Below are positions 4,947-27,712 of a DNA stretch of 30,880 nucleotides, piece after piece. The position numbers were made by a program, and so were the translations under genes. Position 1 is the first letter of the stretch, and the number at the start of each line of letters is the position of its first letter. A model generated the notes under the pieces. That model saw only the letters and a program-made list of their open reading frames with translations, did no database searches and was not told where the DNA came from. Source of the stretch: a virus; IMG/VR virus record IMGVR_UViG_3300012936_000092, positions 1 to 30,880 of that record; one strand, written 5' to 3'.

Positions 4947-4956
4947 AGTATTTATC
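4947..4956 (-). promoter_or_regulatory. T4-type late promoter for gp6
   Basis: The minus strand reads GATAAATACT, matching the T4 late -10 element TATAAATA at seven of eight positions and identical to the motif before the portal gene. It ends 18 bases before the gp6 ATG and leaves room for the AAGGA ribosome site. It is probably read by the gp55 encoded at 13568. Confidence 0.7.
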
Positions 4957-13567: not shown

Positions 13568-14458
13568 ATGCCAACGGTGAAAACACCAAGAAAAGTAAAC
13601 TATCTAAACAATAGAGATATCTTGAAAGAAATTTGGAAAAGCAAGAATACTTACTGTTCTTACTTAGAAAGAGAGTATGCACAGTATGACATTATTGTGC
13701 CAAATGTAAAAAAGATCAATCAGCGTAGTGTTGCTGAAGCAAGACGTAACAAAGCAGATAGAATCAAAAGAGAAACTGGCGAGATAGTTGATCCTGTAAA
13801 ACTAAACAATCAAGAACTAGTTTTTCGTGTTGTTTGTTGGGATCATATTCCAATGGTGCCAAAAAAGCTGACCAAAGCACAACAAAAGAAAAAATCAAAA
13901 CTAGAAGAACTGCTAGAAATGGATGATGTAGACGTTGAAGACGACGGTTTACAAGAACTGATGAGTGATGTAGAACAAGATCTCAACTATGTTAAACTTA
14001 ACTTTCCTCCTTTTTGGCACTATATGATTGATGAAAATAAGGTTCCGTATGTTGTGGGCAAATCACATTGGGTTGGCGGCATGGAGAACGGATACTTTTC
14101 CAAAGACCATGGCAAAATGACAGACAAACTAGCACACATGTTTATAAAATTGTGTGAACGTTATGCTACAAGATCAAATTGGCGTGGCTACACATACAAT
14201 GAAGAAATGCGTGGACAGGCATTGTTGCAATTAAGTCAAATTGGATTACAGTTTGACGAATCAAAATCACAAAATCCGTTTGCATACTACACTGCTACCA
14301 TAACAAACAGTTTTACTAGAGTGTTAAACATAGAAAAGAAAAACCAAAACATAAGAGATGACATACTTGAACAGAACGGACTCAATCCAAGTTGGACAAG
14401 ACAGTTTAACAACTCACCAGATGCAAAGAAACTACAACCGGAAGTTGCTAAAAAGTAA
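13568..14458 (+). CDS. 55: Late-transcription sigma factor gp55
   Basis: Sigma-like subunit that directs host RNA polymerase to TATAAATA-type late promoters. The diagnostic part is the C-terminal third: EEMRGQALLQLSQIGLQFDE, then the sigma region-2-like NPFAYYTATITNSFTRVLN and EKKNQNIRDDILEQNG, which parallels the NPFAYF...EKK pattern of T4 gp55. At 296 residues it is longer than T4 gp55 (185): residues 1-110 form a basic N-terminal region and residues 115-140 an acidic linker (MDDVDVEDDG). The gene has AAGGAG upstream and a strong sigma70-type promoter. Its presence agrees with the ATAAATA motifs before structural genes in this window. The N-terminal extension has no function I can name. Confidence 0.85.
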   Translation: MPTVKTPRKVNYLNNRDILKEIWKSKNTYCSYLEREYAQYDIIVPNVKKINQRSVAEARRNKADRIKRETGEIVDPVKLNNQELVFRVVCWDHIPMVPKKLTKAQQKKKSKLEELLEMDDVDVEDDGLQELMSDVEQDLNYVKLNFPPFWHYMIDENKVPYVVGKSHWVGGMENGYFSKDHGKMTDKLAHMFIKLCERYATRSNWRGYTYNEEMRGQALLQLSQIGLQFDESKSQNPFAYYTATITNSFTRVLNIEKKNQNIRDDILEQNGLNPSWTRQFNNSPDAKKLQPEVAKK

Positions 14459-20764: not shown

Positions 20765-21660
20765 CAAAAATTATACACTATGAACCTACCAGCAGATGTA
20801 ACGCCGCTTGTCCAATGTGTGCAAGAAACATCAATGGCGAAGGATGCATTGTACCTCTACAAGATCTAAGTTTAGAACTTTTCAAAACACAAGTCGGCGC
20901 CTGTATTGATAAACTAGAAAAAGTATTTTTTTGTGGTGCAGTTGGAGATCCTTGTGCAGACAAAACACTGCTGGATAAAATATCGTGGCTAAAACAACAA
21001 CGCAAAGATATTGTCATAGGCATTAACACCAATGGCAGTATTCGAAATGCCGTCTGGTGGACCCAGTGTGGAGAACTGTTAGATGGTATCTATGATTATG
21101 TTGTGTTCAGCATCGATGGACTAGAAGATACAAATCACATCTACAGAGTAGGTGTGCAATACAAAAAAATCATAGAAAATGCACAGGCATACATTGATAC
21201 AGGGGCCAGTGCCCATTGGGATATGCTGGTGTTTGATCATAACAAGCATCAAATTGAGGAGTGTAAACGCCTTGCTGATAGCATGGGATTTACATGGTTT
21301 CGCAGTAAAGAAACTGATCGTTGGGATCAATTTGATTTAGAGCAAATTAGACCTGCAAATCGTCCAAACAAGATTGACTACAAGGCTATAGAGGATATAC
21401 AATGTGAACGCAACATTGAACAATCAACTTATATTGATTATCAAGGGCAGGAGTTTCCCTGTTGCCATATTGGAGAAATGTATTACAGTACTACGCAGGT
21501 AGAAAACAACCAGGATATACTTGCACATACACCAAAACAATTAATGACAGAATATCAAACTAGATTGAACAACGGCAACCCTTTCTACACATGCAAACGG
21601 AGTTGTGGTGTAACAGTTGGAAAACAGTCACAGTGGAAACAAGAAATACAACTTAGATGA
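20761..21660 (+). CDS. Radical SAM protein with SPASM-like C-terminus
   Basis: 299 residues. The radical SAM cluster motif CNAACPMC is at the very start (Cys13, 17, 20). Next come the glycine-rich FFCGAVGDPCAD in the place of the usual GGEP, and INTNGS on strand three, both classic core features. The C-terminal part carries further cysteines (CERNIEQ, FPCCHIGE and CKRSCG), as in SPASM or twitch domains that hold an auxiliary iron-sulfur cluster. SPASM enzymes often modify peptides or proteins, which makes the 158-residue neighbour interesting. It overlaps that neighbour (ATGA) and the GIY-YIG gene downstream (ATGA). Confidence 0.85.
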   Translation: MTKIIHYEPTSRCNAACPMCARNINGEGCIVPLQDLSLELFKTQVGACIDKLEKVFFCGAVGDPCADKTLLDKISWLKQQRKDIVIGINTNGSIRNAVWWTQCGELLDGIYDYVVFSIDGLEDTNHIYRVGVQYKKIIENAQAYIDTGASAHWDMLVFDHNKHQIEECKRLADSMGFTWFRSKETDRWDQFDLEQIRPANRPNKIDYKAIEDIQCERNIEQSTYIDYQGQEFPCCHIGEMYYSTTQVENNQDILAHTPKQLMTEYQTRLNNGNPFYTCKRSCGVTVGKQSQWKQEIQLR

Positions 21661-22064
21661 CGTGGTCTTACAAAAACAAAGCAGTAGAAGAAATACCAGA
21701 AGGCTATATTGGTTTTGTGTATATTATCACGAATACAACAAACAATCGACGCTATATAGGTAAGAAACTAACACAGTTTAAACGCAGTAAGAAGCCTCTC
21801 AAAGGTAGAACCAACAAACGTAGATACACAGTTGAATCTGATTGGCGAGACTACTATGGAAGCAGTGATGAACTTACTGCTGATATTGAACACCTAGGCA
21901 AGGATAAATTTACACGTGAGATACTGTTTTGGTGTAAAAACAAAAGCGAACTTAGTTATATAGAAGCACGTGAACAGTTTACACACAAAGTTTTAGAATC
22001 ACGCGATTGGTACAACGGACACATAAGAGTCCGTGTGCATCAAAAAGGAATCCTAAAAGAATGA
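21657..22064 (+). CDS. GIY-YIG family nuclease
   Basis: 135 residues. The two halves of the motif are GFVYIITN (residues 19-26) and RYIGKK (32-37). They are followed by a very basic loop with KRSKKPLKGRTNKRR, then WRDYYGSS, and a C-terminal EAREQF segment carrying the conserved glutamate expected of the fold. Similar small stand-alone GIY-YIG proteins occur widely in T4-like phages, some as homing endonucleases (Seg type) and others of unknown role. No separate DNA-recognition domain is present. It overlaps both neighbours by four bases (ATGA), so it is embedded in the operon rather than free-standing, which fits a resident gene better than a recent homing insertion. Confidence 0.85.
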   Translation: MTWSYKNKAVEEIPEGYIGFVYIITNTTNNRRYIGKKLTQFKRSKKPLKGRTNKRRYTVESDWRDYYGSSDELTADIEHLGKDKFTREILFWCKNKSELSYIEAREQFTHKVLESRDWYNGHIRVRVHQKGILKE

Positions 22065-22867
22065 AGGTATTGCTAAGTGGTTGCAGTTTCAGTGCTGGTG
22101 TAGGCTTATCTAACACGCTTGTAAACAATGATACACTATATGCTGAGTGTAAAGACCATCCTGATCTTTGGATAAACTTGATGTACGATAACGTCGACAA
22201 CATTGCACGTGGCGGAAACAGTAACCTACGTATTTTTCAAATGGCTACCACTGCACTGCTTGAGAACAGTTACGATATGGCACTAATACAGTGGACCAGT
22301 TTTATGCGGCACGAGTGGAGTGCAGGATTTGAAACTTGGGATACCACAGTTCGATCAATACTTGGTTCAACTAGCAAATTTGTCAATCTACATAATCAAA
22401 CTCTATCTAGCAAATATATACAAGATCGAGTTGATAGTTTTTTTGTCTTGGAACATGCTCACTATAGGATTGTTCAAATACTAGAATACATGAATATACT
22501 TTCACGCATTGCCAAAATTACAAAAACGGAGATATTTTTTATCAATGGACTTTGTTGGTGGGACAACAATTTTTTTGATAAAATTGACTATAAATTGCCA
22601 AGTGAAACCACAAAATACACACAAGAATTGTTAGATTTGCCAAATCATAGCGATGAAGAATATGCAAAATTATATGCTCAAATGCACAGCGACTATACGG
22701 TTGCAGGTGGTATACAAAAATCACGTTGGCTAAACTTGTATGATAACATGCAAAGCAACTTAATTGACAGAGCATATGATGGTGCACACGCTGGCATTGA
22801 AACCAACAAACTATATGCAGAAAAATACTTGACAGAAATAAGGAATCGTACTAGTATAAGCACATAA
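22061..22867 (+). CDS. SGNH/GDSL-like hydrolase family protein
   Basis: 268 residues from the ATG at 22061, chosen because it forms an ATGA overlap with the GIY-YIG stop, has AAAAGGAA upstream, and begins directly with the first strand MKVLLSGCSFSAGVG. GCSFSAG (7-13) is the block-I serine motif, RGGNSN is the block-II/III glycine-asparagine region, and DGAHAG near residue 240 is the Asp-x-x-His catalytic pair. This arrangement is typical of SGNH-fold esterases and acetyl hydrolases. No signal peptide is seen, so it should act in the cytoplasm unless released by lysis. Plausible targets are acyl groups on glycans or small molecules; none can be chosen. It is the last gene of the early operon. 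Confidence 0.7.
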   Translation: MKVLLSGCSFSAGVGLSNTLVNNDTLYAECKDHPDLWINLMYDNVDNIARGGNSNLRIFQMATTALLENSYDMALIQWTSFMRHEWSAGFETWDTTVRSILGSTSKFVNLHNQTLSSKYIQDRVDSFFVLEHAHYRIVQILEYMNILSRIAKITKTEIFFINGLCWWDNNFFDKIDYKLPSETTKYTQELLDLPNHSDEEYAKLYAQMHSDYTVAGGIQKSRWLNLYDNMQSNLIDRAYDGAHAGIETNKLYAEKYLTEIRNRTSIST

Positions 22868-22970
22868 ATTTGATACATACAAAATACTCGCATAAACAAT
22901 TATGCATAGGCACATACAGAGCAATGCTCACACTCTTTTAAATTATATCTAAAATTACATTTATATGACA

Positions 22971-23305
22971 TCGATTGATCGGGACATGCTCGATCCACCT
23001 TGAGGTCTGCCAACGCGAGTTGTAGCCGACAGAACTGGTGCGTCAAAGGAAAAGGCTAACTTAAGGCTAGAATGATATGGGCTCTGTGAAACAGATACAA
23101 CCCATGCGTTGATATACTTTGCTTGAAGGGGTATATTATACGTTCCGTTGTGAGACAAGGCTAGAGTAAGGGGTACAGCACAACCGCCCCTGTTGCACAC
23201 GCAAATCTCTTTATTCATGTGACTGGACCAACTCAGATGATGACAGTTATCTTGCCCGTAGTAGGGCAAGTATGACTAAACTATCTAGATGATAACGGAG
23301 TAATA
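22971..23305 (+). ncRNA. Candidate structured RNA of unknown class
   Basis: GC-richer block between AT-rich flanks with many mutually compatible helices: GATCGGG/CTCGATC around 22977-22995; CAAC-GCGA-GTTG at 23011-23022, a GNRA-capped stem; TCTG/CAGA enclosing it; ATGGG/CCCAT at about 23077-23104 with inner CTGT/ACAG; GTTGTG/CACAAC around 23147-23184; GGGG/CCCC around 23170-23190; and CTTGCCC-GTAGTA-GGGCAAG at 23251-23270, itself enclosed by GTTAT/ATAAC (23246-23250 with 23292-23296). I could not match it to tmRNA, RNase P RNA, 6S, SRP RNA, group I introns or any riboswitch I know. Strand is assumed from flanking genes. It could be a free RNA or the leader of the gltD transcript. Confidence 0.5.
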
Positions 23306-23329
23306 TTTGCTGAACGATAGTGAAGCAAA

Positions 23330-23347
23330 AGATGTCTTTAGACATCT
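23330..23347 (+). promoter_or_regulatory. Hairpin in the gltD leader
   Basis: AGATGTC-TTTA-GACATCT is a perfect seven-pair stem with a four-base loop, ending 37 bases before the gltD ATG. No T-run follows, so it is not a standard terminator. It may be a leader control element or protect the 5' end of a processed message. Confidence 0.45.
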
Positions 23348-23384
23348 CAGATAAGTAAGCATATACTAAAAGGACATAATAAAA

Positions 23385-24800
23385 ATGCATAACCCACATG
23401 GTTTCAAAACCATTGAAAAAGAAGAACGATCTTACGTAGACACAGACACTCGCATAAAAAATTTTAGAGAGTTTGTAATACCTCTTGGTGAAGAAAGAGT
23501 CAAGCAACAGAGCGAGAGATGCATGAGTTGTGGCATACCGTTTTGCCACAATGGTTGTCCAGTCAACAACATGATACCAGATTGGAACGATCTAGTCTAC
23601 AACAACAGATGGCAAGAAGCACTTACTCTTTTACATAGCACGAACAACTTTCCAGAGTTTACTGGACGTATCTGTCCAGCACCGTGCGAAGCGGCCTGTG
23701 TGTTAAATCTCACTGACAAGCCGGTGAGTATCAAAAGCATTGAATGCACAATAGTGGACAAAGGTTGGGAAATGGGTTGGATTACTCCAGTACCAGCAAA
23801 AGTAAAAACAGGTAAAAAAGTTGCAGTGATTGGAAGTGGACCAGCAGGACTTGCTTGTGCTCAACAGTTAGGAAGAGCAGGACACAGTGTTACTGTGTAT
23901 GAAAAGAGTGCTAGAGTAGGCGGACTGCTAAGAATAGGCATACCAGATTTCAAAATGGAAAAGCATCTTATTGATCGTCGTATGGATCAAATGACAGCAG
24001 AAGGTGTAGCATTTATTACAAATACTGAAATAGGCAAGGATATCAGTGCTGAAGAATTAGTTGAACACTATGATGCAGTAGCAATATGTATAGGTTCAGA
24101 AGTGCCGAGAAACTTGCCAGTTGAAGGTAGAGATAACGATGGTATCTACTATGCTATGCAATTTTTATCTCAACAGAATGATAGAATAGCAGGAAAAAGT
24201 ATTGATCCTGAACGAGAAATACATGCCAAAGGCAAAAAAGTTTTGGTAATAGGCGGTGGAGATACTGGCAGTGATTGTGTAGGTACAAGTATTAGACAAG
24301 GTGCCGCCAGTGTAAGACAACTTGAAGTTATGCCAAAGCCTCCTGTGTTAGAAAACAAAAGTTTAGAATGGCCAAATTGGCCAATGAAACTGCGAACAAG
24401 TACCAGTCATGAAGAAATGGGCAGTAAAGGCAGAGCATGGAGTGTGCTTACCAAACGTTTTGAAGGTGGACCAAACGGGCAGGTTACAAAATTGCATTGT
24501 GTAAATGTAGATGAAAACATAAAAGAAATACCCAATAGTGAATTTGAAATAGAAGCAGACCTAGTGTTCTTGGCAATGGGTTTTGTGCATCCTGTACACG
24601 AAGGGCTACTAAAGGACTTAGGTGTAGCACTAGATGCCAGAGGCAATGTGCTTGCAGACGATTCTGCATACAAAACCGACAAAGACAAATTTTTTGTAGC
24701 AGGCGACAGTCGCAGAGGACAATCTCTTGTGGTATGGGCAATACGTGAAGGCAGACAGTGTGCCGAATCTATAGACAGTTTTTTACATGGGCTTAATTAA
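23385..24800 (+). CDS. gltD: Glutamate synthase (NADPH) small subunit, GltD
   Basis: FAD- and iron-sulfur-containing subunit that takes electrons from NAD(P)H for conversion of glutamine and 2-oxoglutarate into two glutamates by GltB. The N-terminal domain has [13 protein letters not shown] (Cys46, 49, 54, 58) and CPAPCEAAC (97, 101, 105), which hold the 4Fe-4S clusters. FAD binding is [14 protein letters not shown] (147-160); the NADPH site is [13 protein letters not shown]; the second FAD motif is [20 protein letters not shown]. At 471 residues it is full length (E. coli 472) with no visible damage. No gltB is in the window, so it presumably works with host GltB or feeds another acceptor. 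ATG at 23385 has AAAAGGA upstream. Preceded by the structured leader region. Confidence 0.95.
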
Positions 24801-25386: not shown

Positions 25387-25700
25387 TCTGGATAGTCTCT
25401 GTACAAAAAGTGTTGTATGGTTTCTCCGTCTACCCACTGATTGAATCCTACGTGTTCAGTTTCGATATCATCAACATTTGATACCACATGTGTCATAGCA
25501 TCATCTAGTGCCTGCATGGTTTCAAATTCCATATCTATTCTAAACTCTGGCAAGTCCATTGAACGAAATCCCAACTTCATTCTGGTGATTCTATAGGCAT
25601 GCATTGTAGGTAATTTATCTAGGAAAAGGCGCATGTTTGCCACAAAAGTTCGTGCATCTATACCTTCTTTTACATCGGCGTAAACTGTGTAAACATTCAT
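25383..25700 (-). CDS. Small conserved protein, dimeric alpha/beta-barrel type (DUF6614-like)
   Basis: 105 residues. It begins MNVYTVYADVKEGIDARTFV and continues with YRITRMKLGF and an acidic helix DMEFETMQALDDAM. The strand-helix-strand order and the N-terminal 'vYtv..dlk.g' pattern resemble small ferredoxin-like barrel proteins, including a family I recall from alphaproteobacteria as DUF6614. No catalytic residues stand out. The start overlaps the preceding stop as TAATG, so it is the last member of the gp26-led operon. Family assignment is tentative and function unknown. Confidence 0.7.
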   Translation of the reverse strand: MNVYTVYADVKEGIDARTFVANMRLFLDKLPTMHAYRITRMKLGFRSMDLPEFRIDMEFETMQALDDAMTHVVSNVDDIETEHVGFNQWVDGETIQHFLYRDYPD

Positions 25701-26131
25701 TATATTCTGCCTTTTAGTATCTCAAATCCGTCAATTTTTGTCTTGTAGTCATCTGCTTGTCCGAGATACAAATAATCAAAACCACGTTTTTTATATATTG
25801 CACACTCGTTTTTCAAACTTCGTATACCTAAACGCAATCCTGGATTTACATAGTCCCAAGCAAACTGTACTGCTTCAACGTTTTTCTTATTATAACATCT
25901 AAGTAAACTAAATGCAACCAATTTTTCATCTTTATCGTAATATCCATACACTTCGTTTTTGTCGTCATAGTATTCTTCTGGAAAGATAGGCATTACACTC
26001 TTAAACTTTTTATGTTTACAGTAAGCGTCGTAGATTGGTTCAAGTTGATTTGGAAACGGACAGGTGATTTTTTTACAGTTGTCCATCAGCGAATAGTTGG
26101 TTTCGCTTAGATTAATTCTTGCGTATATCAT
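25700..26131 (-). CDS. GNAT-fold protein resembling the C-terminal half of arginyl-tRNA-protein transferases
   Basis: 143 residues. EVYGYYDKDEKLVAFSLLRC gives the central strands, and the C-terminal part NPGLRLGIRSLKNECAIYKK with RGFDYLYLGQADDYK matches the layout of the ATE/Bpt C-terminal region, where a 'lg...l..ei.....g.dylYLGy' segment precedes the substrate site. The N-terminal cysteine-containing half of true aminoacyl-tRNA-protein transferases is missing, so it may be a GNAT acyltransferase of other specificity. It overlaps both neighbours (ATGA upstream, TAATG downstream). The substrate is unknown; it could modify a phage or host protein N-terminus, but this is inference. Confidence 0.6.
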   Translation of the reverse strand: MIYARINLSETNYSLMDNCKKITCPFPNQLEPIYDAYCKHKKFKSVMPIFPEEYYDDKNEVYGYYDKDEKLVAFSLLRCYNKKNVEAVQFAWDYVNPGLRLGIRSLKNECAIYKKRGFDYLYLGQADDYKTKIDGFEILKGRI

Positions 26132-27702: not shown

Positions 27703-27712
27703 CATAAATACT
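27703..27712 (+). promoter_or_regulatory. T4-type late promoter for the tape-measure gene
   Basis: CATAAATACT on the plus strand, ending 43 bases before the ATG at 27756. It lies in the 64-base spacer between the divergent gp26 and tape-measure genes and shares the ATAAATACT core with the motifs before gp6 and the portal gene. Confidence 0.7.

Follow-up and report, generated by a model that had tools for sequence, protein, structure and literature searches.

Gene content of the locus

The window, a 30.9-kb IMG/VR fragment of 30,880 nucleotides, contains a 517-base block between a gene for a 268-aa protein and a gltD-like gene (Table 1). According to the original prediction this block holds no credible gene, and inspection of its open reading frames agrees. 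The sole long frame runs antisense (22961–23269, − strand), and neither a Pfam search nor a tblastn search against 50,697 phage records gave a match. A conserved protein frame was also looked for across the relatives described below, where lengths vary by insertions and deletions and no frame is consistently open, and a protein gene was rejected on these grounds. The 268-aa protein has no Pfam or PHROG match and is inserted between the segE-like gene and the block in the window genome. A search of this protein against viral contigs found nothing; in a few other phages, weak relatives adjoin the RNA.

The predicted jump in composition is real, with 33 G/C in the 120 bases at 22851–22970 and 116 in the 240 bases at 22971–23210 (the earlier counts were 34 in 120 and 114 in 240). 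It is not unique, since 35 of 1532 segments of 240 nt have at least 114 G/C. Single-sequence folding was only moderately better than that of shuffled sequences (z = −2.25 on the + strand and −1.0 on the − strand). Thus, composition and hairpins by themselves are weak proof, and the case rests on the relatives.

Table 1. Positions of the genes, RNA elements and related chromosomal units (window coordinates unless a contig is named).
Feature	Position	Strand	Description
segE-like GIY-YIG gene	21657–22064	+	PF19835, 3.5e-36; constant upstream neighbour in the family
Gene-free block	22868–23384		Between the 268-aa gene (22061–22867) and gltD (23385–24800)
AT-rich upstream stretch	22883–22965	+	Two small inverted repeats; conserved in closest relatives only
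Whole structured RNA	22966–23347	+	Covarying extent, about 380 nt, true ends not mapped; nhmmer family and structure counts on 37 sequences
5' domain	22966–23045	+	P1–P5; replaced by an RF01718-type domain in another branch
P1	22966–22969 / 23042–23045	+	Encloses P2–P5; 82% paired; double changes
P2 hairpin	22977–22995	+	Double changes
P3	22996–22999 / 23037–23040	+	100% paired; double changes
P4	23005–23007 / 23028–23030	+	Double changes
P5	23011–23022	+	GCGA loop; double changes
P7 hairpin	23077–23105	+	AUGGG(C)UCUG...CAGA...CCCAU; outer helix 85% paired; double changes in 4 of 5 pairs
P8 hairpin	23107–23142	+	Structure counts on 37 sequences
Helix A (pseudoknot)	23147–23152 (GUUGUG) / 23179–23184 (CACAAC)	+	Spans 23147–23184; enters the loop of helix C
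Helix B	23163–23166 / 23207–23210	+	Spans 23163–23210; encloses helix C and hairpin E
Helix C	23170–23173 / 23187–23190	+	GGGG/CCCC; carries the motif GGUACMGSNYRACCGCC
Hairpin E	23193–23204	+	Inside helix B
Helix D	23124–23127 / 23214–23217	+	Long-range; P8 loop with the strand after helix B; own-versus-swapped z = 16.7
Repeat copy 1	23231–23241	+	ACUC + label AGAUGAU (23235–23241); identity coupling with copy 2
CUUGCCC-GUAGUA-GGGCAAG hairpin	23251–23270	+	Between the two label copies; members have an equivalent hairpin
Repeat copy 2	23283–23293	+	AUCU + label AGAUGAU (23287–23293); identity coupling with copy 1
Two 3' hairpins	23306–23329; 23330–23347	+	GAUA inner loop in the first; strong covariation
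gltD-like gene	23385–24800	+	Fer4_20 + Pyr_redox_2; glutamate synthase small-subunit type
Methylococcales chromosomal units	L216:38–2230; L258:16632–19244; L261:7582–8740; L260:6486–8279		RNA with a small RHH-like ORF

A conserved two-domain fold

Close relatives, about a dozen in number, have the block with 81–89% identity, and many others contain a detectable version of it. An iterated nhmmer search yielded 64 loci, and the family's most conserved motif, GGUACMGSNYRACCGCC, used as a search pattern, added at least 120 further stretches. Taken together, these make a family of at least 187 homologous loci in jumbo T4-like phages.

The original prediction had proposed a covariation test on relatives, and its outcome strongly supports a structured RNA. 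Of the cells formed by the 84 proposed pairs in a diverse set of 37 members from the branch of the window, 78.5% hold standard pairs and 370 are double-changed, as compared to 115 ± 8 in shuffles and 40–108 in slid controls. The window sequence served for drawing the structure, and the alignment was consulted in doing so; this biases the percentage measure in favour of the structure, and two further checks were therefore added. Against a null simulated on the tree, similar to that of R-scape, pairs of helices A, B, C and D and of the 3' hairpins were significant (E < 0.05). Furthermore, stems formed by a member's own strands were longer than those formed by strands swapped among members, with z values of 8.2 to 18.4, as compared to −3 to 1.4 for control combinations. 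The alignments were MAFFT-based, and the trees and null models are rough. Helix A is paired in 100% of the 37 sequences, with double changes in five of its six pairs and a z value of 18.4 in the swap test; one of its strands differs in position by three bases from branch to branch, and column statistics across branches therefore understate it.

The + strand is indicated by G:U being the commonest pair type at several positions in the 37 sequences, and by the scores of helices C and D, which are higher with G:U than with A:C; helices A and B are neutral. Both of the hairpins named in the original prediction, the GNRA-capped stem (P5) and the seven-pair stem with the GTAGTA loop, are present, and the relatives keep them through compensating changes or have equivalent hairpins. 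No U-tract was found at the 3' end of the RNA, and no terminator, and the 3' hairpins are thus not an intrinsic terminator. The fold has two domains, of which the 5' one can be replaced and the 3' one is a conserved core with the pseudoknot. We conclude that the block almost certainly encodes a functional structured RNA.

Genomic setting and relation to gltD

Contigs with relatives of the window's gp46 reach 328 kb, and the largest of them (328,292 nt) has a terminal repeat, as a complete genome would have. The RNA is single-copy in each large phage record examined, and its surroundings are strongly conserved in the 187 loci listed. A segE-like GIY-YIG gene is located just 5' of the RNA in 161 of these, often only 30–200 nt away and on the same strand, with gp46 upstream on the same strand in 152 and gp47 in 113. 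The genes on the 3' side are convergent, d93 being present in 148 and a gp26-like gene in 145 of the loci. No RNA match was found in the named phages near by gp46 (Phosso, Deifobo, Atu_ph07 and SCTP-2), nor by BLAST of a core sequence against 50,697 phage records.

The constant upstream neighbour invites comparison with the free-standing SegE / GIY-YIG homing endonucleases. The segE-like genes of cyanophages, Melnitz and others occur in other contexts with ordinary genes tightly downstream, and chromosomal copies of the RNA (see below) are found without segE. Thus, the link to segE looks positional.

Within the window the RNA immediately precedes gltD, which would suit a 5' leader or riboswitch of this gene, and a long cis-acting leader was among the options of the original prediction. 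The comparison of loci refutes a gltD leader. In the loci listed, gltD is at the 3' side of the RNA in 1 of 187, which is the window alone, and relatives of gltD with 77% and 75% DNA identity are found in other phages between other genes and without the block. A conserved co-directional downstream gene, which a cis-regulatory leader or riboswitch would have, was not seen; most members precede convergent genes, in about 148 loci. We therefore see next to no chance that the RNA is a leader of gltD. Instead, gltD is an insertion into the conserved gene order, specific to the window genome and outside the RNA system, whereas the RNA, independent of gltD, is stably maintained as a single copy throughout a large clade of jumbo T4-like phages. 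In two other phage contigs, near relatives of gltD are placed among virion genes.

Comparison with known RNAs

That the RNA is undescribed, as originally predicted, holds for the window member but not for the 5' domain of some of its relatives. A covariance-model search with the window RNA gave no Rfam match at the gathering cut-off, and at E ≤ 10 only two chance snoRNA/sRNA matches with E about 9; nine relatives of the window's RNA had no match at the gathering cut-off either. In another branch and in copies from Methylococcales, however, the 5' domain is matched by RF01718 (Polynucleobacter-1 RNA) with 62–121 bits (gathering 37), just 5' of the shared 3' core. The loci over the cut-off are L099 (121 bits), L204, L177, L139, L251, L257 and L216, and the cut-off is passed in 7 of 20 phage records.

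RF01718 was reported from Burkholderiales and fresh water as a probably cis-acting RNA, its function being left open (Weinberg et al. 2010, PMC2864571). The present RNA differs from that listing in that phages carry it and in that a co-directional gene mostly does not follow it. The Rfam model comprises 141 nt and represents, for one branch, the 5' third of the RNA; neither the pseudoknotted 3' core nor the twin labels described below are part of it. The window's own 5' domain has no RF01718 match at E ≤ 10. Thus, the whole RNA has about three times the length of the Rfam model, which covers the 5' domain only, and the window represents a variant with another 5' domain. In the literature searched, we found no later paper on RF01718 and no description of the full RNA. 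A large, strongly conserved RNA is a core feature of a widespread aquatic jumbo-phage clade, known so far as a fragment of one branch in Rfam with no function assigned.

Among other large RNAs, GOLLD and ROOL are elaborate, pseudoknotted phage and prophage RNAs of unknown function, and GOLLD likewise combines a conserved 3' region with a variable 5' region (PMC12286853). The present RNA is shorter and has no match to their covariance models, and its scanned phage loci are without tRNA genes. We regard GOLLD and ROOL as analogues in kind, and not as relatives by any test made. Phage ICP1 produces an abundant non-coding transcript of about 800 nt and its satellite PLE also has an RNA, the roles of which are unknown (PMC7567579); these resemble the present RNA, by description alone, in being non-coding and in their phage or satellite setting, but belong to another phage group and another genomic place. 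Searches for tmRNA and tRNA with ARAGORN and Rfam gave no match. A group I or II intron was rejected, there being no Rfam match and the flanking genes being whole.

Two labels that change in step

The 3' part of the RNA contains imperfect direct repeats on either side of the CUUGCCC hairpin, each carrying a 7-nt label, with the two labels 52 nt apart. The labels are identical to each other in about 134 of 141 diverse members, despite many versions that include AGAUAAU, GGAUAAU, AGAUGAU, AACAAAA and GUAUGAA. The three strongest couplings of the alignment are these label identities and not base pairs. When mapped on the tree, copy 1 shows 29, 16 and 17 changes at the three variable sites of the label, and copy 2 changes on the same branch in 27 of 29, 15 of 16 and 14 of 17 cases (3.0, 0.9 and 1.1 expected), a co-change tighter than that of the helices. 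The flanks remain specific to each copy (CUC/UCU and G/A), which argues against a simple homogenization of the repeats. A Methylococcales paralogue displays ACUUAAAGAG in both copies, identical to each other and yet quite different from the other labels. Such a change in step is a rare and statistically strong clue to a partner in trans, and the twin labels offer a direct handle for seeking the carrier of a complement or a protein that binds both copies.

Several searches for a counterpart gave null results. The complement of the 7-nt label was found nearby in cis in 15 members, as compared to 11.7 hits expected. No alignment column covaries strongly with the labels save the other copy, and tests with swapped sequences were close to zero. 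In phage genomes the complement is in general neither avoided nor enriched; avoidance was striking in one genome (27:1) and absent across groups, and was rejected as an explanation.

In the ribosome bypassing of T4 gene 60, twin codons are placed about 50 nt apart. Bypassing between the labels was rejected by reasoning: most labels would read RGA and then a stop, so that a landing ribosome would meet a stop at once, and several variants, AACAAAA and CGACAGG among them, are without a stop.

Copies in Methylococcales chromosomes

A scan of bacterial and archaeal genomes returned nine pattern matches, five of which were homologous. Four of these are on Methylococcales contigs, and the fifth, on a Bacteroidetes-assigned contig, adjoins phage gp26/d93; the host assignments are those of the MAG bins. 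Within Methylococcales, matches were found in 5 of 151 genomes sampled. The neighbours of the Methylococcales copies are genes of cellular appearance, an MmeI-type restriction enzyme and a TIR protein; segE and gp46 are missing from the vicinity, and yet the core motifs and the labels have been kept.

In L216, the RNA, a 52-aa ORF that we read as ribbon-helix-helix-like (RHH-like) and an NYN-domain gene make up a unit of 2.1 kb; a tRNA-Cys gene borders it with its 3' end on one side, and this end is repeated on the other. L260 has an incomplete copy of the RNA beside a tyrosine integrase that adjoins tRNA-Leu. The sequence GATAAATACT precedes the small RHH-like ORF in the chromosomal units and is the most enriched upstream motif of the 328-kb phage. 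We infer that the copies belong to small integrated, perhaps satellite-like, elements. They tie the RNA to phage-satellite or phage-defence biology in methane oxidizers, which are ecologically important.

Some units additionally contain an NYN-domain protein and a divergent gene for 136–138 aa starting with MRINELL. These divergent proteins (L258:18488–18904 and L261:7582–7992) end in a basic tail rich in proline, and at the N-terminus they are similar to several jumbo-phage proteins starting with M[RK][IVL]xE; this N-terminus is possibly a capsid-targeting peptide. Methylococcales contigs L217/L224, L251 and L255 begin or end within the RNA core at identical bases, which would be expected of a sample in which two copies have a common stretch of 141 nt.

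Interpretation of the RNA and its labels

Taken as a whole, the observations are best explained by a stand-alone RNA that presents two identical sites to one partner, although we consider this explanation no likelier to be right than wrong. It agrees with the twin sites, with the interchangeable 5' domain and with the persistence of the RNA without segE or gltD in bacterial inserts. The RNA would act in trans, either from a promoter of its own or after being cut from the gp47-gp46-segE transcript. The core would serve as a scaffold that displays both labels to the partner, which may be an RNA contacted by base pairing or a dimeric protein, and binding would then be bivalent. If the sequence recognized in the partner changed, both labels would have to change as well. 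This bivalent mechanism is a plausible proposal, at best evenly balanced, and the tight co-change of the labels could also be explained by repeated gene conversion between the two copies. Since methanotrophs have the RNA in small inserts of their chromosomes, it may be recognized during infection by these phages or by elements that depend on them. A more specific version, which we regard as improbable, is that the label-bearing RNA is, for example, a guide or sponge against variable RNAs of the host or of rival phages, captured by or shared with the 2-kb non-autonomous, satellite-like inserts; if true, phage warfare would involve a class of bivalent address RNAs.

Constantly placed after segE and lacking a clear promoter, the RNA might also be a structured 3' UTR or operon-end element that protects or ends the gp47-gp46-segE mRNA and has no function in trans. 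The short distance to segE on the same strand, followed by convergent genes, is consistent with such a role, as is the finding that, in 146 loci, the 700 nt ahead of the RNA contain no late promoter ATAAATAC. However, the RNA is far bigger and more conserved than an end hairpin requires and has no U-tract terminator, the chromosomal copies keep the core away from segE and gp46, and in the window an 804-nt gene sits between segE and the RNA. A 3' UTR would also give the label coupling no role. We find this account unlikely. Doubtful, too, is a cis-acting element for replication or packaging, such as an R-loop primer or a packaging RNA, that small chromosomal elements have copied so that the phage replicates or packages them. 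Such an element would agree with the single copy per phage genome, the adjoining recombination genes gp46/47, the occurrence in a 2.1-kb non-autonomous insert flanked by the tRNA-Cys repeat and the shared motif before the small RHH-like gene. Against it, the cumulative GC skew of the 328-kb genome has no clear extreme at the RNA, its minimum being near 2 kb and thus near the arbitrary contig end, and the satellite nature of the inserts is itself inferred. Template jumping or strand exchange, finally, demands identical short direct repeats, as are coupled here, and the labels might be a template pair for reverse transcription or recombination. We hold this to be very improbable: RVT_1, sought as a sign of a retron or DRT template, was found in none of four large RNA-carrying phage records, the RNA has no recombinase neighbour in the phages, and strand exchange in DNA needs no folded RNA.

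Other features of the window

The motif ATAAATAC(T), also given as [CG]ATAAATACT, is the most enriched motif upstream of genes in the related 328-kb phage. In the window it is found ahead of structural genes at 27704 and 30020 on the + strand and at 4948 and 5366 on the − strand. It is probably the late promoter of the clade, used with the gp55-like sigma factor encoded at 13568–14458. The segment at 25700–26131 (− strand) has a weak match to ATE_C, the C-terminal domain of arginyl-tRNA-protein transferase, with an E value of 4.9e-5, just under the curated cut-off.
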